A stretch of DNA of 64,000 nt from Marinovum algicola (GTDB lineage: Bacteria > Pseudomonadota > Alphaproteobacteria > Rhodobacterales > Rhodobacteraceae), in assembly GCF_900109145.1 (NCBI RefSeq), contig NZ_FNYY01000005.1:124001-188000 (forward strand), given 5' to 3'. The notes under the pieces were generated by a model, which was not told the DNA's origin, searched no databases, and was given only the letters and a program-made list of their open reading frames with translations. Shown piece by piece: positions 36,501 to 51,398 of this stretch. Numbering within the stretch: the stretch's first letter is position 1; every line of letters starts with the position of its first letter. The position numbers and the translations under genes were made by a program.

Positions 36501-38433
36501 CCTTGTCGCTGATATCCTCGCCCAGTTCGGCTTGGTTGATGCGGGCGTCCAGACGCTCGTCGTGGGCGCGTAGGGCGTTGAGGATTTGCCAGACGACCTT
36601 GTACCGCTCGTTGTCGTTGAGGGCGTCCTCTGGCTTCGTATTGGGCGGAATGGCGACGGGCAGGATCACATAGCCCAGCTTCTTGCCTTCAGCGCGCCGC
36701 ATAACGCGGCCTACAGACTGCACAACGTCGATCTGGCTCTTACGGGGGTGCATGAACATGATCGCGTCCAGAGCGGGCACGTCGACGCCCTCAGAAAGCA
36801 CCTTGGCATTGGTGAGAATGCGGCACGTGTTGTCGCCTGCGTCCGCCTTTAGCCAGTTGAGCATTTCCTCCCGCGAGCTGGCGTTGTAGCTGCCATCAAC
36901 ATGGCGAACTTCGGTGCTTAGATGGCGGTCGTCTTCGATCAGGTCGTTGCCAACGTATTCGTCGACCACTTTTGTGAACTCGCCTTCGATGATCTCGGAT
37001 TTCTTGATGGTTTGACAGAAGGCCAGCGCGCGTTTCATGGGGCGCGAATCAAATTCGAGGTCCTTCGCGAGGTCGCTTTTCGTCAGAGCCTTATAACAAC
37101 CGATGATCTTTGTCGCGTCATCCAGCGTTAGCTCTGGGCCATCCTTCAGACGGTTCTGAATGGTCTGCGAGACCAAGCCTTCGTCAACGGCGAGTACAAC
37201 CACCTTATAGTCTGTCAGAAGCTGGTTCTCGACGGCCCAACCAAAGCCCCGGTGAAACAGGTCTTTGCCAAACTTGGCCTCGTCATCCATCGACGCGAGT
37301 TTAGCGTCATAGTCATCGGCCTTGCGCTTGGCCGTATCCGCGAAGATGCGCGGCGTCGCGGTCATGTAAAGGCGCTTCTTTGCCGCGACATAGTCGTTGT
37401 CGTGGATGCGAACAAAGTTGCTGTCGTCCTCGTCCTTCAGCGTTACGCCTGTGGTTCGGTGTGCCTCGTCACAGATCACCAAATCGAACACCGGTAGTTC
37501 GTGGTATTTTTGGGCGCGGGTGAGGACGTCAATGGAATGGTAGGTGGAGAAGACCACTGTCATCTGATCTGAGGGCGCAGACAGAACCTGACGGGCGAGT
37601 TTTTCGGGGTCTGTCGTCGCCGGGAAGGCCAGATCATGAACGTTTAGATCAAGGCTGTCAGCGTCAGCTCTGCGGCCGACCTTCGTATCAGAACAGGCGG
37701 AGAATGCGGTGAACGGATGCTCTCTGTCGTTCGTCCACTCCCGAACGGTCTGGGACATCAGTGCAAGCGATGGGACCATGAACAGAACGCGCTTTCCCGG
37801 ACCTGCCAGTGTTTCCGCAATTCGTAGCCCCGTGAAGGTCTTACCCGTCCCGCACGCCATGATCAGCTTACCGCGATCTGCGGTTTCCAGCCCTGCCTGT
37901 ACTTCGCGCAATGCATCCCGCTGATGATCGCGGAGTTGTTTCTTGGGTGCTAGGCTAACCGTGCCAGAACGGATAAACTGGGACCAATCAATGCGGCTTG
38001 CCTCAAGCTCTGCGACGCTGATCCGGTTCCAATCCTTTGAGAGCTTATCCAGCGTTTCCTGTGTGTTGCGACCAAGCTCTTTGTGCGTTGTGTCCGCGAT
38101 TACTAGCCGGGTGAACAGATCATTGGATGATGCCGAGATAAAGCTGTCGATATCGGGCTTTTGGATGGTGTGGTTGGGTGCATAGAACTTGCACTGGATC
38201 GCCGCATAGCCAGAACCGTCCGACAGAGTCCCTACAAGATCGATTCCGGTGTCAGTGTTGCTCCAGCCTTGCGACGTTGCCCAATCGGCGAACGGCTCAA
38301 CTTTCGAATAAAACTGACGTTGAATGTCGTCGTTCTCCATAAATACCCGAACAAGGCGTTCGAAATAGTCGCCTTTCTCTCGTTCGGTCCGCGCTGACGC
38401 GCGATACTCATTCAAAATGTCTTGTAGAAGCAC
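33565..38433 (-). CDS. Single-polypeptide (ISP) restriction-modification enzyme
   Basis: A 1622-residue multidomain enzyme. In order: a PD-(D/E)xK nuclease with Asp65 in GIDLVG and QCK at 80-82; a superfamily 2 helicase with ACGTGKTF at 193-200 and CDEAH at 321-325; an N6-adenine methyltransferase with DPFTGTGTF near 907 and NPPY at 1020-1023; and a C-terminal target-recognition region. This order and size match type ISP enzymes such as LlaGI. The start is GTG at 38433 with GAGG about 9 bases upstream. Codon use and GC drop sharply between about 34290 and 35350, the target-recognition part. Confidence 0.9.
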   Translation of the reverse strand: MLLQDILNEYRASARTEREKGDYFERLVRVFMENDDIQRQFYSKVEPFADWATSQGWSNTDTGIDLVGTLSDGSGYAAIQCKFYAPNHTIQKPDIDSFISASSNDLFTRLVIADTTHKELGRNTQETLDKLSKDWNRISVAELEASRIDWSQFIRSGTVSLAPKKQLRDHQRDALREVQAGLETADRGKLIMACGTGKTFTGLRIAETLAGPGKRVLFMVPSLALMSQTVREWTNDREHPFTAFSACSDTKVGRRADADSLDLNVHDLAFPATTDPEKLARQVLSAPSDQMTVVFSTYHSIDVLTRAQKYHELPVFDLVICDEAHRTTGVTLKDEDDSNFVRIHDNDYVAAKKRLYMTATPRIFADTAKRKADDYDAKLASMDDEAKFGKDLFHRGFGWAVENQLLTDYKVVVLAVDEGLVSQTIQNRLKDGPELTLDDATKIIGCYKALTKSDLAKDLEFDSRPMKRALAFCQTIKKSEIIEGEFTKVVDEYVGNDLIEDDRHLSTEVRHVDGSYNASSREEMLNWLKADAGDNTCRILTNAKVLSEGVDVPALDAIMFMHPRKSQIDVVQSVGRVMRRAEGKKLGYVILPVAIPPNTKPEDALNDNERYKVVWQILNALRAHDERLDARINQAELGEDISDKVELVSISSESELRELTAVVDDFDTNKQKRSKPGSEIGKEGPAPRRTDDADAQQAFVFDEFTRAIMAKIVEKCGTREYWDKWAKDIAEIAQTHITRIKTIVAQEGPEREAFLAFLAELQDDLNPEITEDEAIEMLAQHLITKPVFDALFKSSDFTKENPVSRAMEIVLGQLHQHNLSKESESLEKFYASVQRRAENVVTANGRQELILKLYDSFFKGAFPVLTQRLGIVYTPVEVVDFILHSVNDVLKAQFGQTLGSQGVHILDPFTGTGTFITRLLQSGLIAPEELEHKYKNEIHANEIVLLAYYIAAVNIETVYHELAQGELNKDAPYEPFKGILLTDTFQMYEQERDMVANLLPDNSERRTKQKALDIRVIIGNPPYSGGQENANDDAANISYPQLDSAIRDSYAEASKAKLKNQLYNSYIRAFRWASDRIGDAGVMAFVAGSAWIERGYADGMRKCLVEEFSDLYIFHLRGDVRKSMLSKGAAREGQNIFESGSMTGISIAVLVKNTGKTDHGRIHFHDIGPDLTTAEKKNVIRNFGSIDGIAKSVGWETITPDEKNDWLDQVDASFDKYIEIGSRSADDQPTVFATFSNGVSTARDTWVYGFSETKLQINVRETMETFNAEVAEKASLKDVVRDPKRIKWSADLEKTFERGKRLRFKSDRTRLATFRPFEKTYLYYDGSIIERAGGFALVPEDSRIICLSGKGARSGFSVLCVDVLPNYDMIEKSKCFPLYLYEEAQPGDGLFAASGDQTVGLTRRDAITDEGRAHFQAAYSGEEISKEDLFYYIYGLLHSPDYRERFANNLAKALPRIPAVRTFADFVAFRDAGRALGDLHVNFESVEPYMVTFKEGDHRLIPEAQSDPVAFYRVKHTTKWKWGGKGKEKDLTTVIYNDNITLQNIPLEAYDYVVNGKPALEWVMERQVVKTDKKSGIVNDANDYANETVGDPKYPLELFQRVITVSIETMKIVNGLPPLDID

Positions 38434-38822: not shown

Positions 38823-39878
38823 TCACTCCGCCGCACGTCGCCAGATCAGCCCCTGGTCGCCGCCGAGCTTGGAGCTGGCCAGCGGGCGGTAAACCGCTGC
38901 CAGCACTTCCAGATCCGACGAGGTCGTGAGGGTCAGGTAGGCCTCGAGCCAGGCGAGGTTGTAGGCCGAGATCTCGCGGCTGCCGTCGAAATAGCTCTGC
39001 TCCTCGCCGGTGATCTCGCGGGTGGTGGCGCCGTCGGTCAGATCGTCGAGCACAAAGCCCACCACGCGGTCGAGCGCGGCGTCGCAGCGCGCCCCCGGGG
39101 CGAAACCGTGATCGGCCAGCAGGCGCGAGGCCACCACGAGCGGTGCCACCGCGTGCATCTGGTAGTGGAAGGCCAGCCGACCGCGGGTCATCTCCTGCGG
39201 CAGGCTGCCATCGGGGGCGGCGGTGCAGAGCACGTAATCGGTCGACCAGGCAGCCCAGCCGCGCAACAGCCGATCGCCGCCCAGATCGGCGATGGCCGCC
39301 ACGCCGAGCGCCGCCCAGGCGCGCAGATTGCCCTGGCGGGCGCCGCCGGGGGCCTGTTCCCAGAAACCGAGCTGGCGATAGGCCAGGGCGCTCAGCCAGC
39401 GCTGGATGGCCGAGAGATCTTCGTGCCGGGTGGCATGGGGCACGATCTGGCGCAGGGCCAGCCCCAGACCGGCCAGCCGCGCGCCAATGGTGAGCTGGGC
39501 GGTCTCGGTGGCCAGCGTCTCGAGCGCGCCGGCCTCGGCCCAGGTCGCAAGCTGGGCGATCACGCAATCGGCGATCACGGCTTTCTGCGCGCCTGGTTCA
39601 TACACCCGGTTGGCCAGTTCGGCGAGGTCGCGGATGAAATCGTCCAGCGGCGCCAGCGCGGCTTCGGCGGCGGCCTCGGCGGCCGGGTCGATCTCGGAGC
39701 GGGTCGCGCCTTGATCGGCGTAGCGGCTGTCATAGGCGAGCGTCAGCACCGGCGCCGGCGGTTCCGGGCAGGTCAGGGCCAGCGCCGGCGCAGCAAGCCC
39801 GAGGCTCAGCGCAGCCGCAGCCAGCGCGCCAGATCCGCGGCGTCTGAATCTCCGCCGGTGGCGGCTTTGTCGAGCCAT
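38823..39878 (-). CDS. AlgL-like periplasmic alginate lyase homologue
   Basis: A 351-residue exported protein with an Arg-rich start and a signal peptide ending near ALALTC, matching polysaccharide lyase family 5 (AlgL). AlgL clears stray alginate from the periplasm during export. The Arg and Tyr of the active site appear in RGRLAFHY (Arg232, Tyr239). The NH pair of the NNHSYW motif is Asn184-Leu185 here, so the catalytic His seems lost. The start lies 73 bases inside the preceding gene, which the signal peptide requires. Last gene of the operon. Confidence 0.75.
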   Translation of the reverse strand: MARQSRHRRRFRRRGSGALAAAALSLGLAAPALALTCPEPPAPVLTLAYDSRYADQGATRSEIDPAAEAAAEAALAPLDDFIRDLAELANRVYEPGAQKAVIADCVIAQLATWAEAGALETLATETAQLTIGARLAGLGLALRQIVPHATRHEDLSAIQRWLSALAYRQLGFWEQAPGGARQGNLRAWAALGVAAIADLGGDRLLRGWAAWSTDYVLCTAAPDGSLPQEMTRGRLAFHYQMHAVAPLVVASRLLADHGFAPGARCDAALDRVVGFVLDDLTDGATTREITGEEQSYFDGSREISAYNLAWLEAYLTLTTSSDLEVLAAVYRPLASSKLGGDQGLIWRRAAE

Positions 39879-42523
39879 TCGAGGGCCTCCGTTTCATTGC
39901 GGGCGACGCCCGCGCCCATGGCAAGGTTGCGGCCAAGTTCCGCCATCGCCGGCACCGCGCCCGCGTGGGCGGCGGCGCGCAGGGCGGTGATGGCCTCGGC
40001 CAGGGATTGCGCCGTTGTGGCACGGTTTTGCAGCAGCCGGGCGTGACGCCAGAGCGCCTCCGGCTCGCCTGCTGCGGCGATCCGGGCCACCAGCTGCGGG
40101 AAATCGAACGTTTCGTCGATCGCCCGGCGCAGCTCCTCCGGTGCGGCGAGGTATTGTTCGAAGGCGCGCGGCAGGGTGTCGCCGCGGTCAACCAGTGCCT
40201 TGAAATGCGCGGCCGCCTGTTGCGGCGCGTAACTCGCCAGATCGGGCTGCGCGGTCAGGTGAAACAGCCGCCACTGGCCTTGCAGGTCTCCGGCCCGGTC
40301 GCGGGCGACAACCTGCGCGGGCCCCGGTGCCGGCCGGGTGTCGAATCCGGCCATCTGGCCATTGGTCAGTCGCAGTTTTGACAGGGTGTTGTGACCGGCG
40401 ATGGCCAGCCCGATCTGGCGCCAGTGAAACGACATCGGCGCCGTGCCGTGGATTGCATGTGCCTCGCCCAGTTCGTCGGTGTCCTTGGTGGAACAGGCCA
40501 TCAGGCTGACCGCGCGGTCGAAGTAATCGTCGCGCTTGGTTTCGGCGACGTGGGGCAGGGCGAACATCATGGCGAGAAAATCGCCACGGTCGTCGATGAT
40601 CCCGGCAAATTCGTCAAAGACCCGGCGTTCGGCTTCCGGCGTCTTGCCAAGCCGCGCCAGCAGTCGGATCGCGGCACCTTCGCCCCGGTGGCTGGCCTGG
40701 CGCAGCAGGTGCCGCACTTCTTCGGCCATGGCCGGGTTCATGCCGCTGTCGTTGATCATCGCGACCGAGAGATCGAGCGCGGTGGTCACGCCATTGTTGA
40801 GATAGACCCGGCGGAAGAATTCCAGCGCCAGCGCCCGTTCCGCCGGATTGGTGGCCAGCGCAAACTCGAGCTTGGCGAACTCTTCCAACGTCTTATCGGA
40901 ATTGTCGGTGCGGTCGGCCCAGATCCGCTGTGCCGTCTCGGTGGCGATCGGGTCGCGCTGCACGAGTTGCAGGTAATGGGCGAGGGACAGGGTGCGCCCG
41001 TCCAACGCCTGCGATTGCAGACGGGCCAGACGCCAGGGGTCCTTGTAGGGATCGAGCGCCATCAGGTTCGACGGCGTCAGCGCCACCATCTTGTGCGTGG
41101 TGCCGGCATAGGCCCGCGCCCAGGGTTCGGCCTGATCCAGCAGCGGCGCATCGGGCGCCTGGCAGCGGAACAGCCGGTCGAGGTCGTTCATTGCGGCGGC
41201 GTCGCGGTGGCGCGTGGCGGCCAGGGTCAAGAGGTCGACGGCGCGGTTGAGCTGCGCGGGATCGTCGCGATAGCGCAGCAGCCTGGCGGCAAGCGCGCGC
41301 ATGCCCGCGGGGTCGTTGCGGGCGGTGGCGATCTCGAGCTGCGCGATGATCTCGTCTTCGCCGGCCCAGCGGCCGAGCCGCACCGAAAGCTCCTGCGCCA
41401 GCTGGGTAAAGACCAGGCCGGGCGCGCCGGGAATGGTGGCGATCTCGCGCAGATAGGTGAGGTAGGGCCCCGAGAGGCTGGTCTCCATGGCATCGATGTT
41501 CACGCCGGTCTGCAACAGCGGCGTCAGCGAGGCGCGGCGGCGGCCGCGGTCGTCGGCCTGGGTATGGGCGAGGATCTCGCGCAGGGTGTCGGCGTCGATG
41601 CCGCCCTCCTCGAGCCGCCCCCGGGAACCGTCATCGACCACGATGCCGCGGGCCACGGCGCGCCGGAGATAATGCAACATCTCGGCGCTGTCCTGATCTT
41701 CGGCCGCGGCCGAGAGATGAAATTCCACCATCCGCCAGGCCGCCCTGGCCGAACCCAGATCGGCGGCGAAGCGATACCACGCCCAGCCGATCTCGGCATT
41801 GCGGCGGACAATGCCTCCGGTGAGGTATTCGTGTGCGATGCGTTCGGCGCGGGCACAGACGCCACTGTCCATCTGTCCCAGCAGCCCGCCAAAGGCCATG
41901 GTGGCGGTCAGATCCTCCGGCGCGTCCCAGCCGGGCAGGGGGCGCGCTTCGGCCATGCGCCGCGCCACCAAAAGGAGCGCTTCGGGGTGACCGGCAAAGG
42001 CCGCCTCGAGGATCAGGTCATCGGCGGCGGAGGTGTCGGCGGGAGTGCCGATACCATTGCGATGGAACTGCGCCAGCTGCATTTTCTGGCCGTTGGTCAG
42101 CAGCGGGCGTTGCGCCGTCAGCTGCGCCACAAGCCCGGCCTGTTCAAGCGCATCGAAGCGGCCGGCGTCGATGTGCAGACCGATCAGGTCGATCAGCTCG
42201 GCCGCCCCTGAAAAGCGCGCGTCCGCGCTCGACAGCCGCGCGCGCAGGGTGGCGATAAAGTCGAAATGCCGGTCGGGATCGGCGCTCTGATAACGGCGGA
42301 TGTCGCGTTGCAGATAGCGGGCGCGTTCCATCTCGGTCAGCGCGTCCTCGTCGCCGGGGCTGCCGTCGTCGACGCGCCGCTCGGCCGCGGCGCGGCCGCA
42401 GAGCGATTGTTCCTCGACCGCCGGCGGCAGGAAGGCCAGATCGAGCGGCACGGCCGGCAGCGCCGCCGGCGCCAAGAGCGCCATTACGCAGGGCGCACCC
42501 AGAAGACGGCTCAGCGCAGACAT
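39806..42523 (-). CDS. Large Sel1/TPR-like protein in AlgK position
   Basis: A 905-residue exported protein with an N-terminal signal (VMALLAPAALPAVPL) and many degenerate Sel1-like helical repeats, for example AQFHRNGIGTPADTSAADDLILEAAFAGHPEALLLVARRMAEA and AELGRNLAMGAGVARNETEALEWLDKAATGGDSDAADLA. In Pseudomonas, AlgK is a lipoprotein of about half this length with the same repeat class. No lipobox is visible here. By position and repeats it should be the periplasmic scaffold of the polymer export machine. Confidence 0.68.
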   Translation of the reverse strand: MSALSRLLGAPCVMALLAPAALPAVPLDLAFLPPAVEEQSLCGRAAAERRVDDGSPGDEDALTEMERARYLQRDIRRYQSADPDRHFDFIATLRARLSSADARFSGAAELIDLIGLHIDAGRFDALEQAGLVAQLTAQRPLLTNGQKMQLAQFHRNGIGTPADTSAADDLILEAAFAGHPEALLLVARRMAEARPLPGWDAPEDLTATMAFGGLLGQMDSGVCARAERIAHEYLTGGIVRRNAEIGWAWYRFAADLGSARAAWRMVEFHLSAAAEDQDSAEMLHYLRRAVARGIVVDDGSRGRLEEGGIDADTLREILAHTQADDRGRRRASLTPLLQTGVNIDAMETSLSGPYLTYLREIATIPGAPGLVFTQLAQELSVRLGRWAGEDEIIAQLEIATARNDPAGMRALAARLLRYRDDPAQLNRAVDLLTLAATRHRDAAAMNDLDRLFRCQAPDAPLLDQAEPWARAYAGTTHKMVALTPSNLMALDPYKDPWRLARLQSQALDGRTLSLAHYLQLVQRDPIATETAQRIWADRTDNSDKTLEEFAKLEFALATNPAERALALEFFRRVYLNNGVTTALDLSVAMINDSGMNPAMAEEVRHLLRQASHRGEGAAIRLLARLGKTPEAERRVFDEFAGIIDDRGDFLAMMFALPHVAETKRDDYFDRAVSLMACSTKDTDELGEAHAIHGTAPMSFHWRQIGLAIAGHNTLSKLRLTNGQMAGFDTRPAPGPAQVVARDRAGDLQGQWRLFHLTAQPDLASYAPQQAAAHFKALVDRGDTLPRAFEQYLAAPEELRRAIDETFDFPQLVARIAAAGEPEALWRHARLLQNRATTAQSLAEAITALRAAAHAGAVPAMAELGRNLAMGAGVARNETEALEWLDKAATGGDSDAADLARWLRLR

Positions 42524-43812
42524 GCCCGCACCTCCGCATGCTCGCCGAAATCCACGTCCAGCGTCACCGCGACCGAGCTGACGCCCGCGCTCCAGAGACC
42601 GGTCATCGGCGCATAGAACCGCCCGCTGGGCAGCTGCGCCCGGTGGCGCAGGATTTCGCGGTGGCGGGTCTCGCCCGCGTCATTGCCAAAGGCCAGAACC
42701 GCGCGGCGGGCCGGGGCGCCCGCGGCATCGACAAACAGCATGTGCGCACTCTCCGTATCAAGCGTCGAAAGATCGACGCGCAGGGTCTTGGGATCGTCGG
42801 CGTCGCGCGCGACTTCGAGGGGGATGTCGCAGCGGTGGCGCGCGGCGGCGATCAGTTCGGCCATCGGCTGGTCGTCATGAAGCCCCGGGGCCTCGGCCTG
42901 GGGCAGTTCCCAGACCAGCACGCTGGGCCGGGCGTTCTGAAACTCGGCCGAGGTCAGATAGGTGGAAATCGCCGCAAAGGCACCACCACCCGGCACCGAA
43001 TATTGCACCACGTCGAGCCCGGTTTGCTGCGCCAGAAAGCCGGCGAAATTGGCCTCCGGCGTGTCGGAATGCTCGCTGCCCACCAAGGCGACAACGCCCC
43101 TCGCGCCCTCGGCGGTAAAGGTACGGCTGGTCTTCCAGGTCGCGGTTTCGGCCGGCGGCAGCGGCTCGGCGCAGGAGCGTTGGCGGACAAGGCGGGCGTG
43201 CGAGGCCACGCTGGCCGAACCGGTGGGCACCGTCTCGAACCGGCCTTGCGCCAGCGCATCGATCCCCGGCACCGCCTTGATCGCGGCGCCGATGGCGGCG
43301 GCGGCCAAGCGCGCTCCTTCGGCGGTCAGCCGCGGATCGGTGCGGAAATAGGGCAGGGGGCCGGTGGCGTCGACCATTTCGGCGCGCAGATCGACGGCGC
43401 GCACCCCGGCCGCCTGCAATTGCGACAGCGCGTCGAGATAGACCGTGGTGGCCAGCGAATAGTCAAAGCCGTAATTGGTGGTGGCGGGAGACAGGTATTT
43501 CGGCATCGCCAGCGATTTCACCGGCACCGGCGCATAGATCAGTGCCGTCCCCTTCGCGGCCAGCGCCTGCGTGAGTGTGGCGAGATCGGCGATTGTCTCC
43601 GGCGCCATCGGGTGATGATTGTGCAGGTCGGGATGCAGGCGAAAGAACACGCCCTCGCGCCCCTCGACGCTGGCCATGAACTGCCCTTCTGCCAAGCCGC
43701 GGCAGCCATAGCCCGAAGCCGCCGCCGGCCCCGCCAGTCCCAGACTGGCCACACCCAGCCCCAGCATCGCCGCGGCGGCGCGCCGCCGGAATGTTGCGCA
43801 TCGCGTCATCAT
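42511..43812 (-). CDS. AlgX/AlgJ-like SGNH-fold protein
   Basis: A 433-residue exported protein related to AlgX and AlgJ, the SGNH-fold alginate acetyltransferases. The opening EGREGVFFRLHPDLHN, the block YFRTDPRLTAEGARLAA and LVGSEHSDTPEANFAGFLAQQTG align with AlgX. Where I recall AlgX having TDTHW and GTSYS, this protein has TDPRL (Asp159, Arg161) and GSEHS (245-249), so the His and Ser of the triad look replaced. It overlaps both neighbours by a few bases. Start at 43812 or, with better spacing to GGAGG, at 43809. Confidence 0.75.
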   Translation of the reverse strand: MMTRCATFRRRAAAAMLGLGVASLGLAGPAAASGYGCRGLAEGQFMASVEGREGVFFRLHPDLHNHHPMAPETIADLATLTQALAAKGTALIYAPVPVKSLAMPKYLSPATTNYGFDYSLATTVYLDALSQLQAAGVRAVDLRAEMVDATGPLPYFRTDPRLTAEGARLAAAAIGAAIKAVPGIDALAQGRFETVPTGSASVASHARLVRQRSCAEPLPPAETATWKTSRTFTAEGARGVVALVGSEHSDTPEANFAGFLAQQTGLDVVQYSVPGGGAFAAISTYLTSAEFQNARPSVLVWELPQAEAPGLHDDQPMAELIAAARHRCDIPLEVARDADDPKTLRVDLSTLDTESAHMLFVDAAGAPARRAVLAFGNDAGETRHREILRHRAQLPSGRFYAPMTGLWSAGVSSVAVTLDVDFGEHAEVRACLR

Positions 43813-44561
43813 GTCGCCTCCCTGTGCCGCTGCCGCGCCTCGGCGCTCCGGCGCAGGCTTTGCGCCATGGTGCGGACCGGCAGATCGCCCGTGCGTTCGG
43901 CCAGCTCGAGATAGCCGATCACCCGGGTCAGCGCCGCCGCATCCAGATCGTCGCGGCTCAGATCCTTCATCGCCAGTGCCAGCACCATGCGCGCGCCGCC
44001 CTCCTGACGGATGCGGGCGCGGGTGGCCTCGGACATCGGACCAAACAGCTTGCCCGGACCATTGAGCGCGATCAGCGCATCCTGGGCCAGGCTGTTGCCG
44101 GCCCAGGCATGGGGATAGAGCACGCGGATAAATTGCGACACGCGGTGTTTCGGCTCGCGCGCGGGGTCGAGCAGGTAGAGCGCCGCGACAAAATCGTCGA
44201 ACAGGCCCTGCCGACCGGCGCCCGAGGCGATGCTGGCGTAATAGGCGATGTCAGAGGCATGTTCCGCCGGGCCGCGTGGCCGCAGGCGCTTGACCATGCG
44301 CAGTGCCGCCAGCCCGTCCCCGGCCTCGGCCAGCCGGCGCAGATCGGCGTCGCGCAGCGGCCTGTTGCCGACCATCGCCTTGCGCAGCCGCCGCAGTTCG
44401 GCGGTGGGCAACTGGCGGGTGTGGGTGATGCCACGGTCGACCACTACGGCGATCCTGCGACTTTCGGGGGCTGCCGGCAGGGTCAGCGGCTGGGCGAGGC
44501 CGGCGCTGGCCAGCGTCCCGGCCAGCACCGTTGCCAGCACGATGGTTCGGCGCATTGCCAT
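43809..44561 (-). CDS. Unidentified exported protein of the alginate-type operon
   Basis: A 250-residue protein with a signal peptide (IVLATVLAGTLASAGLAQP) and a helical mature region. I find no match to AlgF, AlgI, AlgJ or AlgE. It sits between the AlgG-like and AlgX-like genes, four bases from the former and overlapping the latter, so it is certainly part of the operon. A periplasmic scaffold role is a guess from its position and helical content. Confidence 0.7.
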   Translation of the reverse strand: MAMRRTIVLATVLAGTLASAGLAQPLTLPAAPESRRIAVVVDRGITHTRQLPTAELRRLRKAMVGNRPLRDADLRRLAEAGDGLAALRMVKRLRPRGPAEHASDIAYYASIASGAGRQGLFDDFVAALYLLDPAREPKHRVSQFIRVLYPHAWAGNSLAQDALIALNGPGKLFGPMSEATRARIRQEGGARMVLALAMKDLSRDDLDAAALTRVIGYLELAERTGDLPVRTMAQSLRRSAEARQRHREAT

Positions 44562-44564
44562 GGC

Positions 44565-46067
44565 TCAGCCCTCCTGCCCGCAATGACTGGGCAGATCGGC
44601 GATCCGCACCAGGCCCGCCGCGTCCAACGCGATCGGCGCGCGGCCGGTAATGTCCGAGGCGATGTAACGCGCCTGCCGGCCCAGGTCTCCGGCCAGAAAC
44701 CGCGGGAATTGCCGGGTAAAATCGTTACCTTCCAGCAGGATCGCCTCGGCCGTGGCCGTGGCCACGCCGGCGCCGTTGGCGTCGAGCACATTGTCCTCGA
44801 TCCGGGTCACCGCGCCGGCGGGCTGGCCCGACACCCAGATGCCGGCGCTCTTGTTGCTGACCAGGATGTTGCCGTCCAGATGCGCCGCCAGGCTGTGACG
44901 CACCTCGATGCCCTTCTGCCGGTTGCCGATCACGTAATTGCCGCTGACACGGGCACAACGGGCCCGGTCGAGCTTGATGCCGCTGCCATCGCGGGCCCAG
45001 ACGATATTGCCCTCGACCCGGGTGCGGTCGGGGGCGTTCTTGATCAGGATGCCGACGCGGTCGCCCTCGAGGATGGCATTGCCCGCCAGCACCGTGCCGG
45101 AAGAGCCGTCGAGCACCCGGATCGCGTTGGTCACCGAGCGCCCGGCCAGAAGGTTGGCGGTGACGCGGGTGTCGCGGCTGTGCAGGATGACCAGCGCGGC
45201 CGATCCCGCGTCTTCGATCCGGTTGCCGTCGATCACCAGCCCCTCGGCGGCCTGCACCGAGATGCGCTTGATCCGCGCGATCTTGCTGTTGGCGATGAAA
45301 GAGCCGGCGGCGGGCCGGTCAAGCGCGCCGCGAATGACCGAGAGACCGGAATATTTGACCGTGCTGCCAAACCCGAGATCGGCGATCTCGGCGTCGCGCA
45401 CGTGCAGCGTGCCGGCGCCGGTGGTGGTGACGAAGGGGGCGAATTCCGCATTGTCGGGGCTTTCGCCACCGACCCCGCGCAGCACAGCGCCCTCGAGCAC
45501 CAGCCGGCCGAAATTTAGCACGAAGGCGCCGTGGTTGCGGCTGAGGTCCAGCCGCTCGCCGGGCCCGATCCGCAGCTCGGCCCCGTGCCGGATGATCAGC
45601 GGCGCACGCAATTCGAGCCCGCCCGTGCCGGGCACCGCGTCTTCGCCCATCAACGCCGCCAGATCGGCCAGCCCGAGGCTGCCGCTTTCGATCATCCGCA
45701 CCTGGGGGCCGCGCCCGGCCTGCGCCGCCAGGACGGCGCTGTTGTCCTCATGCCCGAAGGCCTGCGCCAGACGGCCGAGCGCGATCCGCAGATCGAAACT
45801 GCCGGTCGAGATCGCCGCGCCGGTGGGGGCCCCGATCGGCGTGACATCGGCCGCCGGCGGCAGTGCAAAGCCGGCTTCGGCCATCAGCGCCCGGGCGCCG
45901 AACCGCGCGGCCTCATCCGCCGCCACCGCCTCGGCCAGCCGCAGGACGGCCTGCCGCTGCTGCTGGCCATGGCTGTCGGGCGCGGCGAAACCGGGCAGGG
46001 CCATGCCGGCCGCCATCACCGCCGCAACCCAGAGGCCGGCGCGTCTCGTGTTCCGTTCACGAGGCAT
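44565..46067 (-). CDS. AlgG-like right-handed beta-helix protein
   Basis: About 500 residues with a signal peptide and a parallel beta-helix of AlgG type: repeated coils such as GILIKNAPDRTRVEGN, GIKLDRARCARVSGN and GIEVRHSLAAHLDGN. AlgG converts mannuronate to guluronate in the periplasm. The DPHD catalytic motif of epimerases is absent; the aligned coil reads approximately ALVILHSRDTRV. Start ATG 46067 overlaps algA; GTG at 46076 is an alternative. It may be a structural or altered-specificity homologue. Confidence 0.75.
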   Translation of the reverse strand: MPRERNTRRAGLWVAAVMAAGMALPGFAAPDSHGQQQRQAVLRLAEAVAADEAARFGARALMAEAGFALPPAADVTPIGAPTGAAISTGSFDLRIALGRLAQAFGHEDNSAVLAAQAGRGPQVRMIESGSLGLADLAALMGEDAVPGTGGLELRAPLIIRHGAELRIGPGERLDLSRNHGAFVLNFGRLVLEGAVLRGVGGESPDNAEFAPFVTTTGAGTLHVRDAEIADLGFGSTVKYSGLSVIRGALDRPAAGSFIANSKIARIKRISVQAAEGLVIDGNRIEDAGSAALVILHSRDTRVTANLLAGRSVTNAIRVLDGSSGTVLAGNAILEGDRVGILIKNAPDRTRVEGNIVWARDGSGIKLDRARCARVSGNYVIGNRQKGIEVRHSLAAHLDGNILVSNKSAGIWVSGQPAGAVTRIEDNVLDANGAGVATATAEAILLEGNDFTRQFPRFLAGDLGRQARYIASDITGRAPIALDAAGLVRIADLPSHCGQEG

Positions 46068-47460
46068 GACGCGCACTGCTGGCCAGGTCCTGCGGGGCCT
46101 CCTGCAAGACGATGGTGAAGACCAGCACCTCGACCGCCGTGTCGGTCGGATTGCTCAACGTCGTGCGCGTCTGATGGCATAGCGTCTGGCGGTCGCCGTC
46201 GCGCAGCCGCGCCTGGGTGCGGCCATTGGTCAGCAGCACCTCGCCCGCCGCCACGATCGCCTCGCGTCCCGGCGCGGGATCGAGCCGCATGGTGCCGCCG
46301 GGTTTGACCGTGACGGTGCAGAGCGTCATGTGATCGCGCGCCACCAGCTGGCGGATGCTGCCCCATTCGTAATCGGTGCGCTGGTGTTTCTCGGCCTCGA
46401 TGCGCTCGTTCGACTTCAAGTGTTCGGCCACCTGCTTGACGGACTGGCAATGGCCCACCTTGGTGACCAGCAGCGCATCGGCGGTGTCGACGACGATGAT
46501 ATCCTCGAGCCCGACACAGGTCACCAGACGGGTTTCCGAGCGGATCATGCAGTTCTTGCTCTCGACCGAGATCACGTCGCCCTGAATGACATTGCCCGAG
46601 GCGTCGGTGTTGGAAATGCCGTACATCGCGGTCCAGCTTCCGACATCGCTCCATTCCACGTCGAGCCGGCAGAGCGCGATGCGCCTTGTCTGCTCGAAGA
46701 CCGCCTTTTCGGTCGGTTCGGCATCGGCCTGGCCAAAGGCTTCGCCGTCAAGCAGCAGGCCCTCGGCGGTCTCGGACGCGGCGCTCAGCGCCTGCACCAC
46801 GTGGTCGAGCGTTTCGGGATCGTAGCGGGCGTATTCCTCGATGATAGTCGCCGCCTTGAACAGGCTGATGCCCGAGGCCCAATAGGCGATGTCGCTCTCG
46901 ACCAGCAGCCGCGCCTTGCGGGTGGGGGGTTTTTCGACAAAGCGCTCGACCTCGCGCAGGTTGGGATGGGCGATGATCGGGCCGCCGTCGGTGATATAGC
47001 CAAAGCCGGTTTCGGCATAACGCGGCTTGATCCCGAAGGTGACGATGTATCCGGCCTCCGCGCCCGGCTGCACCGCCTTGATCGCGGTGTTGATGTCGCC
47101 CTCGATCACGTGATCGGCCGGCACCACCAGCATCAGCTGGTCCGGATCCCTGGCCGCCAGCTTGAGCGCGGCGGCAAGGACGGCGGGGCCGGTGTTGCGG
47201 CCCATCGGTTCGAGGATCACGTCGGCGCCGCGGCCGATCTGGCGCAGCTGACGATGCAGCGTGCGGCCGTGTTTCGCGGACGAGACGATCAGCGGGGTGC
47301 CGAAGCCTTCGCCGGAATGCCGTTCGACGGCGGCCTGGAAGAAGGTGAGCGACGCGGCATCGCCGACCCGTTGAAACTGCTTCGGGCTGTGCGTGCGCGA
47401 GATCGGCCAGAGCCGCGTGCCATTGCCGCCGCAGATGATCAGGGGGGTGATCTCTTTCAT
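46057..47460 (-). CDS. algA: Mannose-1-phosphate guanylyltransferase (AlgA type)
   Basis: A 467-residue protein. Residues 1 to about 345 form the GDP-mannose pyrophosphorylase domain with GGNGTRLWPISR at 11-22 and RFVEKPP at 173-179. The C-terminal third aligns with the type II phosphomannose isomerase cupin, beginning YEWGSIRQL at 364, but the metal-binding QxHxHR segment reads GTMRLDPAPGREAIV at 389-403, with no His. It is probably a guanylyltransferase only. It makes GDP-mannose for AlgD. It overlaps alg44 by four bases. Confidence 0.9.
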   Translation of the reverse strand: MKEITPLIICGGNGTRLWPISRTHSPKQFQRVGDAASLTFFQAAVERHSGEGFGTPLIVSSAKHGRTLHRQLRQIGRGADVILEPMGRNTGPAVLAAALKLAARDPDQLMLVVPADHVIEGDINTAIKAVQPGAEAGYIVTFGIKPRYAETGFGYITDGGPIIAHPNLREVERFVEKPPTRKARLLVESDIAYWASGISLFKAATIIEEYARYDPETLDHVVQALSAASETAEGLLLDGEAFGQADAEPTEKAVFEQTRRIALCRLDVEWSDVGSWTAMYGISNTDASGNVIQGDVISVESKNCMIRSETRLVTCVGLEDIIVVDTADALLVTKVGHCQSVKQVAEHLKSNERIEAEKHQRTDYEWGSIRQLVARDHMTLCTVTVKPGGTMRLDPAPGREAIVAAGEVLLTNGRTQARLRDGDRQTLCHQTRTTLSNPTDTAVEVLVFTIVLQEAPQDLASSARHAS

Positions 47461-48551
47461 TGTCCGTCCGTCCCATTCTCAAACGGTTTGGCGAAAAGTG
47501 CCTTGGAAATCCGCACCCGTGCGGATTTTCCGATGTCATCGGCGGTCAATGCGCCGGGCTGCGGCCGGAGCCGGACCGGCAGGAAGAGATCGCCGTCTTC
47601 CGCCGCGGCGCTGGTGGCCGAGGTCAGGATGATCTGCGCCGGGATCGCCCGGCCGTCATTCATCTGAAGATGCACCACCTCGCCTGCCATCGCGCGCGAC
47701 AGGCCTTCGGTGCTCATCTGGGTCTGCACGCTGACGGTTTCGTCCTGGCCGAACAGCATCAGGATGCTGTCGCCCGGCAGCACGGTGGCGCCTTCGAACA
47801 TGCCATCAGTCAGGGTGACGGTGCAGTCGCAGGGCGACTGAAAATTCAGCACGTCGCCGGTGGTGGCCGAGAGCGAATAGAGCACCTCGCCCTTGCCGGC
47901 GGCAGGGTTGAGATAGATGATCTGGCCGCCGCTGGTGGCGCGCATCTCATTGCCGGCGCGCATGATGAAGACCGGGCGCAGCTCGTAATTGGTGGTGTAG
48001 CGCACAAAGAGCGCGCTCAGAGCCAGATAGATCAGCAGCAGCGAGGTCAGCACCACGCCGATGCTCTTGAGCCGGCGGCGGTTGTCCTCTTCGGTGCCGC
48101 CCGCCTTCGGCTGTTTGAGCTGGGTCGGGCCGGTGTAGCTCATCATCGAGCCAAGGCTGACGACGTCGCCGGCGATATAGGTGTTCAGGATATACCGCAG
48201 CTGCGGCAGATGCGGGCCGGTGGGGTCGATGAACTGCAAGGTGAGCTCGTCGCCGGTGGCATTGACGCTGACCTTGGCCTCGGGAAAGAGGGTGATGGTG
48301 AAGCCGCCGAAATCGAACCGCAGGCGCACCGGCTGACGGCTGTTGATCAGCGCCGGCGGAACCGCGTTCAGCAATTCGACGTAGGCCGCCGTCACCGAAA
48401 CCCCGGTGCCGGTAAAGCGGGCCTCGCCGATCTGGGCCGTGAACGGCACCGGCAGTACCGGGTGCTCGTTGTCAAATCCGAACTCGGTCGGGACCTGAGG
48501 CGCTTTGGGTGCGCCATGTTCGTCTTTTTCCATGGTGATCTTGTCAAGCAT
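47457..48551 (-). CDS. alg44: Alg44-like polymerase co-factor with degenerate PilZ
   Basis: A 364-residue inner membrane protein: an N-terminal PilZ-like domain (about 25-130), one membrane helix (SIGVVLTSLLLIYLALSALFV near 165-185), and a periplasmic membrane-fusion-type domain. In Pseudomonas, Alg44 binds cyclic-di-GMP through RxxxR and DxSxxG and activates Alg8. Here the sites read HPVLPVPF at 30-37 and GTGVSVTAAY at 48-57, with no Arg and no Asp. Placed between alg8 and algA with a four-base overlap to algA. SD GAGG lies six bases before the ATG. Confidence 0.85.
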   Translation of the reverse strand: MLDKITMEKDEHGAPKAPQVPTEFGFDNEHPVLPVPFTAQIGEARFTGTGVSVTAAYVELLNAVPPALINSRQPVRLRFDFGGFTITLFPEAKVSVNATGDELTLQFIDPTGPHLPQLRYILNTYIAGDVVSLGSMMSYTGPTQLKQPKAGGTEEDNRRRLKSIGVVLTSLLLIYLALSALFVRYTTNYELRPVFIMRAGNEMRATSGGQIIYLNPAAGKGEVLYSLSATTGDVLNFQSPCDCTVTLTDGMFEGATVLPGDSILMLFGQDETVSVQTQMSTEGLSRAMAGEVVHLQMNDGRAIPAQIILTSATSAAAEDGDLFLPVRLRPQPGALTADDIGKSARVRISKALFAKPFENGTDGQ

Positions 48552-48559
48552 CGCGCACC

Positions 48560-50035
48560 TCAGACTTTGGTAAAATACAGGATCGCAACCGTCAGCCAGA
48601 CCAGCGCGAGCGCGTGGTGGGCGGCACTTTCGGTTGCCTTGAGCTTGTCACGCAGCGCGATGATCGCGCCGCCGGTTCCGCCGCCCTGGCGGGTCCATTT
48701 CTGCTTGTCCATGCGGAACAGGACATAGGTTTTCAGCGCCGCGCCCACGACCTGGCTGAAATACAGGATCGGCGGATGGGTGACCGGAAACCAGCTGCCC
48801 CGGAACAGCGCGATGATGACGCAGAAGATATAGCGGGTGATCATCACCCAGGCGATGTAGAGCGGGATCACCGAGGGGCTGACCATGATCGCGGCCAGCG
48901 CCACGGTGATCGGCCCGACAAGCGTCGTCCACATCGAGACCCGCTGGTCGAGCACCGACCACCAGGTAAAGCCGCCGATCAGCCGCGGCGAGAGCCGCAG
49001 CGCCCGGCCGTTGGTGCGGATCATGTTGCCGAACCAGCGCACCATCAGCGTCTTGGAACTGTCGAGAAACGTCGGCCGTGGCTGAAACTCGAAGCTGACC
49101 GAGCGCACATCCGGCAGGTAATGCATCTCGTAGCCGTTCTTGAGCAGCCAGAACCAAGTGGATTTGTCGTCGCCGGTCAGGAAATCCACCCGGCCCAGCC
49201 GCCAGTGGTCGAGGAAATCCTGGCCGATGGCCTGAATGAAGGTCGGATCGGTGGCCAGATCGGCGCGAAAGACGCTCATCCGCCCGGTCAGCGTCAACAC
49301 CCGCTTGGACAGCCCCATCGAACACATCATCACCTGCCGCTGGTTGAAGCGCAGCACGAACCAATCCTTGAACAGGCTCTCGCGGCCGACTTCGACGTCT
49401 TCGTCGGTGGTCAGAGCGCCGACCTTGAGATCGGTGAACACCGGCGCGCTTTCGGTCCAGATGTCCTCGGGCACCATGGTGTCGCCGTCGACAAAGACGA
49501 GGATGTCGCGGTGGGTGGGCGAAAGGCCACCCAGGATGCGCAGGGTCCGGGCCAGCGCGTCGCGCTTGCCGTTGGCCTTGATGCGGTCGACGATCAGCTG
49601 AACGCCGGTCATGTCCTCGGCTTGGGTCTCGTAGATCTGTCGGATCAGCCGCGCGTCGGCGCCATCGACCACCGAAGCCACGATCGTCGCCCCGTCCCGG
49701 GCGCGCGCGGCGGCGCGGAACACGCTGCGATAGACGGGCAGGGTGACCTCCGGCTCCACCATGTAGGAGGTGACCAGCATGTACATGTGCGATCTGCCGG
49801 CCCGTTGGGCGAACCGCCGCCGCGCAAGACGCTTGCGCCGCGGATGGATGACCCGCCGAAAGACCACCGCGCGGGCAAAGTTGATGGCCGCCCAGCTGTA
49901 CCGCCACGTGCCCAGGAAGCCCATGATGAAGATCGTGTTGGTCGCATACTGGATCTCCCCCAGTGCCGCTCTGGGCACCAGGGTCACCAACAGGACGACC
50001 AACGAAAAATAGGCCATATGGGAGAGCGCAAGCAT
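48560..50035 (-). CDS. alg8: Alg8 family mannuronan polymerase (GT2)
   Basis: A 491-residue membrane glycosyltransferase of family 2. Catalytic residues are present: ASVVDGADARL, the DxD motif in LVFVDGDTMVPED, TGDDKSTWFWL near the acceptor site, and a QxxRW-like KTLMVRWFGNM. Membrane helices flank the cytoplasmic domain at both ends. It polymerises GDP-mannuronate and, with Alg44, forms the synthase. The ATG at 50035 has GAGAGGAG seven bases upstream, better than the ATG at 50059. Confidence 0.9.
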   Translation of the reverse strand: MLALSHMAYFSLVVLLVTLVPRAALGEIQYATNTIFIMGFLGTWRYSWAAINFARAVVFRRVIHPRRKRLARRRFAQRAGRSHMYMLVTSYMVEPEVTLPVYRSVFRAAARARDGATIVASVVDGADARLIRQIYETQAEDMTGVQLIVDRIKANGKRDALARTLRILGGLSPTHRDILVFVDGDTMVPEDIWTESAPVFTDLKVGALTTDEDVEVGRESLFKDWFVLRFNQRQVMMCSMGLSKRVLTLTGRMSVFRADLATDPTFIQAIGQDFLDHWRLGRVDFLTGDDKSTWFWLLKNGYEMHYLPDVRSVSFEFQPRPTFLDSSKTLMVRWFGNMIRTNGRALRLSPRLIGGFTWWSVLDQRVSMWTTLVGPITVALAAIMVSPSVIPLYIAWVMITRYIFCVIIALFRGSWFPVTHPPILYFSQVVGAALKTYVLFRMDKQKWTRQGGGTGGAIIALRDKLKATESAAHHALALVWLTVAILYFTKV

Positions 50036-50078
50036 GGCTCGGCTCCTCTCTGCGATCACGATGTTGCGAAGTGCTGGC

Positions 50079-51398
50079 TTACCAGCAGATGCCCTCGTAG
50101 GTGCCGCTCGACACCTTCTGGCGGTTCATCCGGGTCAGATCGAGCACCGGGCGGTCCTTGGCCGCGGCCTCGAGCGTATCCAGCGTGTCGCGGTAGAAGT
50201 TGCCCACCAGAATCGCGCCGGCCTCATGGATCATCGCATCCAGGTCCGGGGTCATCCGGTCCTTGAGATCGGGGATCACGTCATTGCCGCGGCCCGCCGC
50301 CGAATTGTCGTTGGCATAGGCTTCGTGCACATAGGGATCATAGACATCGACCTGCACGCCGTTCCTGATCAGCCGTGCCGCCAGCTCTGCCAGCGGGCTT
50401 TCGCGCAGGTCGTCGGTGCCCGGTTTGAAGGAAATGCCGACAAAGCCGACCTTTTTCGCCCCGGTGCGTTCCACCATCGCCTCGGCGCGGCGGATCTGTG
50501 CCTCGTTGGCCTCGAGCACCGCGTTCAGCAGATGTGCCGGCGTGTTCTGCGTCTCCGCCAGATGGCGCAGGGCGCGCACGTCCTTGGGCAGGCAGGAGCC
50601 GCCGAAGGCAAAGCCGGGCCGCATGAAGTAGGACGAGATGTTGACCTTGGTGTCGGAGCAGAGAATCTCCATCACCGTCTGCCCGTCGAGGCCGGCGGCC
50701 TTGGCGATATTGCCGATCTCGTTGGCAAAGGTCACCTTGACCGCGCGCCAGGTGTTCGAGGTGTATTTCACCATCTCGGCGGTGCGCACATCGACAACTT
50801 TGATGTCGCAGGGCAGGTCGATGTTGATCGCGGTCAGGATGTCTGCGGTGCCCTGATCCAGCGCGCCGAAGACGATCAGGCCGGGATCGTCGTAATCCTC
50901 GATCGCGGTGCTCTCACGCAGGAATTCGGGGTAATAGCCGACGCCGAAGTCGCGCCCGGCGATCTTGCCGCTTGCGGCTTCCAGCGCCGGGATGCAGGTG
51001 TGCTCGGTCGAGCCGGGGACGATGGTCGAGCGGATGACCACGCTGTGGTAGCCCTGCTTTTTCGCCATTGCCGCGCCGATGTTGCGGCAGGCGGTCTCGA
51101 CATAGGTCAGCCCGACAGAGCCATCCGGCGCGCTGGGCGTGCCGACGGCGATAAAGGAGACGTCGCTGTTGTCGATCGCATGCTGCACATCGTCCGTGGC
51201 AGACAGCTTGCCGTCGCCGACAACCTGCGCAATAAGCGCATCCAATCCGTTTTCGACGATCGGGGAAAGCCCCGCATTGATCGCCTCGACCTTCCCCGGC
51301 TCGACATCGACCGCGATGACCTGATGACCGTCGCGGGCCAGGCAGGCCGCTGAGACCACGCCTACATACCCAATGCCAAAGACACTGATTCTTGCCAT
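50079..51398 (-). CDS. algD: GDP-mannose 6-dehydrogenase AlgD
   Basis: A 439-residue UDP-glucose/GDP-mannose dehydrogenase family member. The Rossmann loop is ISVFGIGYVGVVSAACLARDGH, the NAD-binding region has GTPSAPDGSVGL, and the catalytic Cys269 lies in FAFGGSCLPKD. Position at the head of an operon with alg8, alg44 and algA assigns it to GDP-mannuronate synthesis. The ATG at 51398 follows GAGGTAG. Upstream is an unusually AT-rich, motif-dense region, the likely promoter of the nine-gene operon. Confidence 0.9.
   Translation of the reverse strand: MARISVFGIGYVGVVSAACLARDGHQVIAVDVEPGKVEAINAGLSPIVENGLDALIAQVVGDGKLSATDDVQHAIDNSDVSFIAVGTPSAPDGSVGLTYVETACRNIGAAMAKKQGYHSVVIRSTIVPGSTEHTCIPALEAASGKIAGRDFGVGYYPEFLRESTAIEDYDDPGLIVFGALDQGTADILTAINIDLPCDIKVVDVRTAEMVKYTSNTWRAVKVTFANEIGNIAKAAGLDGQTVMEILCSDTKVNISSYFMRPGFAFGGSCLPKDVRALRHLAETQNTPAHLLNAVLEANEAQIRRAEAMVERTGAKKVGFVGISFKPGTDDLRESPLAELAARLIRNGVQVDVYDPYVHEAYANDNSAAGRGNDVIPDLKDRMTPDLDAMIHEAGAILVGNFYRDTLDTLEAAAKDRPVLDLTRMNRQKVSSGTYEGICW

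Follow-up and report, generated by a model that had tools for sequence, protein, structure and literature searches.

In Pseudomonas, the alginate operon has the gene order algD-8-44-K-E-G-X-L-I-J-F-A. A related operon is present in Marinovum algicola at positions 38823-51398 of the window, by which we mean the whole stretch of 64,000 nt analysed here (assembly GCF_900109145.1, contig NZ_FNYY01000005.1, positions 124,001-188,000). Both operons encode AlgD, Alg8, an Alg44-like co-polymerase, AlgA and AlgG-, AlgX-, AlgK- and AlgL-type proteins. The operon of M. algicola differs in its gene order and lacks AlgE, AlgI, AlgJ and AlgF. Furthermore, its AlgX has lost the His and Ser of the active site, its AlgG lacks the DPHD motif, its AlgL has Leu in place of His, its Alg44 lacks the cyclic di-GMP (c-di-GMP) motif, its AlgK-like protein measures 905 aa and an extra Sel1 protein of 250 aa is encoded. 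Alginate operons that have lost export or modification loci have been described as 'atypical' (Bundalovic-Torma et al., 2020; PMC7112194), but the accessible portion of that paper neither treats loss of the AlgX active site nor names the present lineage. It seems likely that the operon described here is a stripped-down alginate operon from a family in which algI, algJ and algF were lost twice, that its AlgX has a structural function and that its product is an unacetylated, probably unepimerised polymannuronate.

The AlgX-like protein (42511-43812, minus strand as all genes of the operon; 433 aa) combines an SGNH domain with a carbohydrate-binding module (CBM)-type domain and matched PF16822 (E 2.4e-42). 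Its AlphaFold model (predicted local distance difference test score, pLDDT, 87.2) had AlgX 4knc as best fold match, with template modelling (TM) scores of 0.72/0.76. Residues D174, H176 and S269 of AlgX are required for acetylation, according to the available text of PMC4148444. The window protein keeps the Asp (Asp159) but has Arg161 at the position of His176 and Glu247 at that of Ser269. AlgI, AlgJ and AlgF are not encoded in the operon, and the window's genome contained no match to MBOAT or to AlgF. The single PF16822 protein of this genome is the AlgX-like protein without triad. The window thus encodes neither AlgI, AlgJ and AlgF nor an AlgX with the Asp-His-Ser triad of the O-acetylation machinery.

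Related loci were collected in two ways. In a search of 292 genomes of the order, Alg8-type matches at E 1e-40 or better were obtained in 41; 21 loci, including that of the window, had at least 55% identity, and we fetched the 20 besides the window's, which came from 18 genomes. A named survey took the best 80 of at least 578 confirmed relatives; 66 of these 80 were assigned to the family and 14 formed the outgroup. Removal of 5 near-duplicates from 87 family rows left 82 non-identical loci. We called a locus 'long' if algI or algJ was seen and 'compact' if AlgX was seen with neither, and motifs were counted with simple patterns. The family comprised 28 compact loci (window included), 49 long loci and 5 that were too short to tell. 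The long form, found in for instance Yoonia, Loktanella and Rhizobium, has the same backbone D-8-44-A-G-s-X-K-L as the compact form, where s is the small Sel1 protein, but only the long form has algI-algJ between G and s, algF between X and K and an intact AlgX triad. In long loci algI was found in 49/49, algJ in 48/49 and algF in 47/49, the remainder being cut off by locus ends (algJ lies outside the locus DNA for L101, algF for L101 and L102). In one long locus Pfam named these genes; elsewhere they were recognised by similarity. All 12 long-form genomes that were searched matched PF11182, 8 of them above the cut-off, compared with none of 7 compact-only genomes. The AlgJ triad read D-H-S in 47 of 48 scored proteins and W-H-S in one.

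The state of AlgX follows the same division. The triad was D-H-S in 47/49 long loci; in L102 only D-H could be read, as the contig end truncates the Ser region, and the AlgX of L101 was not covered. In the compact loci the His was lost in 28/28 and the Ser in 27/28, and L084, where a Ser was present in a locally uncertain alignment, has Arg for His. A base at the His position together with an acid at the Ser position occurred in 20 of the 28. Three genomes contained both forms (L038/L047, L034/L049 and L069/L092), and in these the triad was kept in the long copy only. No algD or algA was seen in the long copies of these genomes, so that the precursor is probably shared between both copies. The AlgX of L046 was short, and the algK-like reading of L046 and the algJ reading of L047 contained stop codons. 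These operons are possibly damaged or misassembled, or the match was stretched past the gene end.

In a tree of AlgD, Alg8, Alg44, AlgA and AlgG (96 rows), from which AlgX was left out, the compact loci appeared in two places. A Rhodobacterales clade contained 25 compact loci and one undecided locus, and a Martelella clade contained 3 compact loci, each with a Shimodaira-Hasegawa-like approximate likelihood ratio (SH-aLRT) support of 100. The initial annotation had proposed a survey of other Rhodobacterales; all 25 compact loci of the Rhodobacterales clade, the window included, have lost the AlgX His. A single compact clade was rejected by the approximately unbiased test (p-AU 0.00035), which assumes that the group is chosen before the tree is seen, while here it was chosen afterwards. 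A paired sign test was concordant in 2/2 independent contrasts (p 0.5) and cannot reach significance with only two contrasts, since two losses are few; for this test the AlgX trait was entered from the earlier residue scoring, with L102 left out. Gene content and tree point to an ancestor in which AlgI, AlgJ, AlgF and a live AlgX would have acetylated the polymer. The genes algI, algJ and algF would then have been lost in the clade of the window and again in Martelella, while AlgX was retained with its His and Ser replaced, mostly by a base and an acid in the Rhodobacterales clade. There were probably two or more losses of acetylation, and each left a disarmed AlgX in place.

Why AlgX was kept may be understood from Pseudomonas, where deletion of AlgI, AlgJ or AlgF spares secretion whereas deletion of AlgX compromises it, according to the part of PMC9734138 that is available. 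The compact operons have the same split, as I, J and F are lost and X is kept. Retention of the gene with a ruined active site, after loss of the acetylation genes, suggests that AlgX has a second, structural role. The ratio of nonsynonymous to synonymous substitution rates (omega, Nei-Gojobori) of AlgX ranged from 0.13 to 0.38 among five pairs of compact loci and was 0.10 in three pairs of long loci, with some high dS values. AlgX is thus still constrained, perhaps less tightly, and the compact AlgX is probably still used.

We give very little credence to the idea that AlgX and its neighbours are decaying leftovers of an operon that is heading for loss and makes little or no polymer. In the closest pair, the window and L067, omega was 0.38-0.41 for AlgX, AlgG and AlgL, reached 0.57 for the small Sel1 protein and was 0.14-0.16 for AlgD and Alg8, which would fit decay. 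Against this, omega was below 1 in every gene and pair that yielded a value, all nine genes were open in the window and in 8 compact loci that were fetched whole, and within one clade several named genera have retained the compact form.

Acetylation of the polymer by another system, encoded elsewhere in the genome, deserves hardly any weight. In its favour, the compact-only genome G203 encodes one unlinked MBOAT protein and the genomes G065 and G146 have a second, long operon. In the genome of the window acetylation elsewhere is disfavoured, as the MBOAT and AlgF searches were empty and the only PF16822 protein is the triad-less AlgX. The same results rule out that the acetylation genes had moved to another place in this genome.

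The operon itself is a real one and encodes a stripped-down alginate-type synthase, as judged from gene order and protein families. The nine minus-strand genes have intergenic gaps of at most 19 bases and overlaps of at most 73 bases on inspection of the open reading frames (ORFs). Set and order of the nine genes recurred in 8 more of the fetched loci, with protein identities of 35-82%, so the arrangement is not due to chance. Pfam gave no match for the Alg44-like protein and the 250-aa protein, and the AlgA, AlgG and AlgL homologues of the window all scored below the NCBIfam equivalog cut-off, which makes these proteins distant family members. The initial annotation had described one leftward transcript of nine genes, and strand and gaps agree with this, but its overlap limit of about 45 bases is exceeded by the K/L overlap, which is the largest in the operon with 73 bases provided that translation starts at the ATG at 39878. 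Its other statements on the core of the operon were borne out by Pfam and motif inspection, namely that Cys269 of AlgD, the guanylyltransferase half of AlgA and the DGD and GDDKST motifs of Alg8 look intact, and so was the absence of AlgE, AlgI and AlgF, none of which was encoded in the operon or matched elsewhere in the genome. Neither the lost c-di-GMP motif of Alg44 nor the degenerate isomerase half of AlgA figured in that annotation.

The gene algD (50079-51398) encodes a GDP-mannose 6-dehydrogenase of 439 aa with Pfam UDPG_MGDP_dh domains and Cys269. Its best match in the PDB was the P. aeruginosa GDP-mannose dehydrogenase 1mfz (E 2.3e-126, full length), followed by a UDP-glucose dehydrogenase (E 8.7e-76). 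Since the protein is far nearer to GDP-mannose than to UDP-glucose dehydrogenases, this supports a supply of GDP-mannuronate. Alg8 (48560-50059; 499 aa; PF13641), the mannuronan polymerase, belongs to glycosyltransferase family 2 (GT2) and has D191-G192-D193 and GDDKST (296-301), neither of which varied when the window was aligned with 18 relatives. In the nearest 20 loci of the order, not counting the window's own, Alg8 had 55-72% identity. The AlgA-like mannose-1-phosphate guanylyltransferase (46057-47460; 467 aa) matched PF00483 and PF22640; its guanylyltransferase half looks intact, and it scored 370.8 bits against TIGR01479, just below the cut-off of 372.95. The C-terminal isomerase half is degenerate, with no PF01050 match in the window protein and without the phosphomannose isomerase (PMI) motif that was searched. 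This pattern, QxHxHRxEHW, for which there was no positive control, was found in 0/73 family AlgA proteins and also in 0/7 of the outgroup. A separate PF01050 protein is encoded on contig C57 of the window's genome, in which no type I isomerase was matched. The algA gene is retained within the locus in 73/77 loci. In precursor supply (AlgD, AlgA) and in the GT2 motifs of Alg8 the operon thus corresponds to the Pseudomonas type. Judged from their families, AlgA and AlgD would make GDP-mannuronate, which Alg8 and the Alg44-like protein would polymerise into the periplasm.

The Alg44-like co-polymerase (47457-48551; 364 aa) departs from the Pseudomonas type, as its PilZ-like N-terminal domain lacks the c-di-GMP motif. 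Its family profile matched the Alg44 PilZ chain 4xrn weakly (E 0.0062). The RXXXR motif of Alg44, with R21 and R17, is part of the c-di-GMP site, as stated in the available part of a review (PMC8461298). The pattern RxxxR..[DN]xSxxG was found in 0/77 family members, compared with 11/13 outgroup loci, and the two outgroup rows without it (L135 and L139) look like wrong-frame readings. Polymerisation is therefore probably not switched by c-di-GMP through Alg44. The outgroup operon, from 14 mostly rhizobial loci (L132-L146 without L138), has a related AlgD and Alg8 (Alg8 41-47% identity) and keeps not only the PilZ motif but also DPHD in its AlgG-like protein (13/13 scored). It may be an epimerising relative. 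The AlgG-like protein of these loci is long, with a large N-terminal extension.

The AlgG-like protein of the window (44565-46076; 503 aa) has the beta-helix fold of AlgG without its DPHD motif. Its family profile matched AlgG 4ozz (E 2e-37), its AlphaFold model had a pLDDT of 87.9 with AlgG 4nk6 as best fold match, and it scored 51 bits with the NCBIfam model for AlgG, which has a cut-off of 700. The pattern DP[HY] was found in 0/77 family AlgG proteins, compact and long alike, and in 13/13 of the outgroup. One AlgG entry in the PDB is, by its title, the D317A mutant of the DPHD motif. In AlgG, His319 and Arg345 are catalytic. The window protein has a non-conserved His299 that aligns pairwise with His319. 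It is plausible that the polymer is not epimerised.

The AlgL-like protein (38823-39878; 351 aa), a homologue of polysaccharide lyase family 5 (PF05426, E 4.4e-18), gave a family-profile match to the AlgL chains 4ozw/4ozv (E 4e-39). It has Leu185 at the position of His202 and keeps Asn184, Trp188, Arg232 and Tyr239. Scoring of AlgL covered 38 loci (28 compact and 10 long), since in most long loci it lies beyond the fetched DNA. In these, H202 was replaced by Leu and K66 by Arg in 38/38 and Y259 by His in 36/38, while Arg249 and Tyr256 (P. aeruginosa numbering) were kept in 38/38. According to the accessible text of PMC8829089, P. aeruginosa AlgL H202A is inactive in vitro and wild-type-like in vivo, unlike R249A or Y256F. 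Because Arg and Tyr are kept and H202A behaves like the wild type in vivo, we do not call AlgL dead. The enzyme probably still clears stray polymer.

The initial annotation had proposed that epimerase, acetyltransferase and lyase homologues all lack essential residues and now serve as structural parts, and that the polymer is unmodified. For AlgX (His and Ser) and AlgG (DPHD) the loss was confirmed, but AlgL lost only the His202 equivalent and kept Arg and Tyr; the case of residues displaced but present, which that annotation had named as evidence to the contrary, may apply to it, given the His at the Tyr259 position in 36/38. A structural role suits AlgX but probably does not describe AlgL. 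Absence of acetylation agrees with the missing AlgI, AlgJ and AlgF and the lost AlgX site, while lack of epimerisation is plausible from the indirect count of 0/77. The idea that these homologues were altered together did not hold. The long form, with its acetylation genes, has the AlgG, AlgL and Alg44 changes in common with the compact form, so these changes are older than the loss of algI, algJ and algF, and by gene content and motif counts only the AlgX change accompanies that loss. One event behind all tailoring losses is ruled out, as the AlgG, AlgL and Alg44 changes also occur in the long loci scored.

The fixed AlgL substitutions could also mean that the operon makes another uronan or a mixed polymer, for which the AlgG, AlgL and AlgX homologues have remodelled sites, so that 'lost' residues reflect a changed substrate and not lost activity. 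The base and acid in 20/28 compact AlgX proteins, which are not random letters, would agree with this, as would a PF14099-like lyase gene beside algD in 13/28 compact loci. We nevertheless regard another polymer as unlikely. The presence of algA in 73/77 loci, the match of AlgD to GDP-mannose dehydrogenase and the invariant Alg8 motifs speak for mannuronate, and with the donor chain AlgI/AlgJ/AlgF gone there would be no acetyl for AlgX to transfer. An unacetylated and probably unepimerised polymannuronate thus seems the better reading, and AlgX would remain as a structural part.

For export, the chain would be guided through the periplasm by AlgX, the two Sel1 proteins and the AlgG-like beta-helix, by analogy with Pseudomonas. 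The AlgK-like protein (39806-42523; 905 aa; PF08238) is about twice as long as AlgK; its family profile matched Sel1 proteins and AlgK 7ula_B (E 6.4e-7), with the likeness to AlgK in the repeats only. The small, secreted-looking Sel1/MotX-like helical-repeat protein (43809-44561; 250 aa) was assigned by a family-profile match to MotX (E 1.4e-4). It precedes algX in both forms and was not recognised in L082 and L084. The outer-membrane porin AlgE (PF13372), part of the Pseudomonas-type operon, was found in 0/19 operon-bearing genomes, including the window's, in a search whose control matched 1/14 (a Bacteroides), so that a distant porin could be missed. The 12 long-form genomes searched, two of which hold both forms, had no PF13372 match. 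No replacement porin was recognised beside the operon among flanking-ORF clusters of 77 loci, of which the 14 largest were inspected by eye and barrels were not predicted; these 14 included an ABC-type protein, a LuxR-type regulator, a ParA-like protein and apparent shadow ORFs, one of the latter pointing to the PF14099-like lyase. A bolder version, that the acetyltransferase was twice turned into a purely structural exporter part, stabilised in one lineage by a base-acid ion pair, and that naked polymannuronate leaves by an AlgE-free outer-membrane route built around the two Sel1 proteins, the enlarged one and its small partner, is conceivable but doubtful.

Several points weigh against the proposed losses and product, in addition to the limits of the two tree-based tests given above. 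Firstly, relative to the Sel1 protein, AlgX evolved faster in 4/5 compact pairs (ratio 1.2-2.6) than in the three long pairs (ratio 0.7-1.1), so part of its change could be relaxation. Secondly, a His occupies the His299 column in 8/77 AlgG proteins, including that of the window, and epimerisation by other residues is possible. Thirdly, the AlgA, AlgG and AlgL homologues all scored below the equivalog cut-offs, and no AlgE was found through which the polymer could cross the outer membrane. Lastly, the product is a prediction from the genes, with polymannuronate as the most likely one.

The flanks of the two forms differ as well. A LuxR-type response regulator was located near the operon in 40/49 long loci, upstream of algD (e.g. 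L042:1739-2443) and in L043 downstream, while the sole match in the 28 compact loci was weak and distant. Conversely, a divergent gene similar to PF14099 polysaccharide lyases adjoins algD in 13/28 compact and 0/49 long loci. Pfam was run on three of these genes. Secreted-looking PF14099 lyases divergent from algD lie at L032:1391-2293, L034:1459-2394 and L037:1366-2289. Such a lyase could trim unacetylated polymer. Both counts could miss genes in the compact loci L076 and L079, which have less than 1.5 kb upstream of algD. The window carries a metallo-beta-lactamase-fold gene at this place, and its genome gave no match to the PF14099-like lyase in a search without positive control. Just downstream of algL, a type ISP restriction-modification enzyme of 1622 aa (33565-38433, minus strand; PF18135 and PF22240) is encoded. 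The G+C content is 0.50-0.57 at 26-38 kb and mostly 0.63-0.71 elsewhere in the window, and this stretch is possibly an acquired defence island.

In our searches of open-licence papers we found none on this operon in Rhodobacterales, Alphaproteobacteria, Roseobacter, Martelella or Rhodobacteraceae, and none on AlgX as a pseudoenzyme or on natural loss of its triad. The accessible part of a paper on Yangia exopolysaccharide (EPS) held no useful uronic analysis. While an alginate-type operon is of a known kind, the apparent repeated loss of algI, algJ and algF with AlgX kept but disarmed is the strongest new point of this comparison. The AlgX of Pseudomonas acts as the terminal acetyltransferase and is also required for secretion, two functions that were separated there with mutants. 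Evolution appears to have separated them twice, and the many natural AlgX proteins with a ruined site offer material for finding the surfaces involved in export. The family also poses the question of how a polymannuronate would exit a cell where no AlgE was found. Since related long and compact operons exist, sometimes in the same genome, the role of acetylation becomes directly testable.

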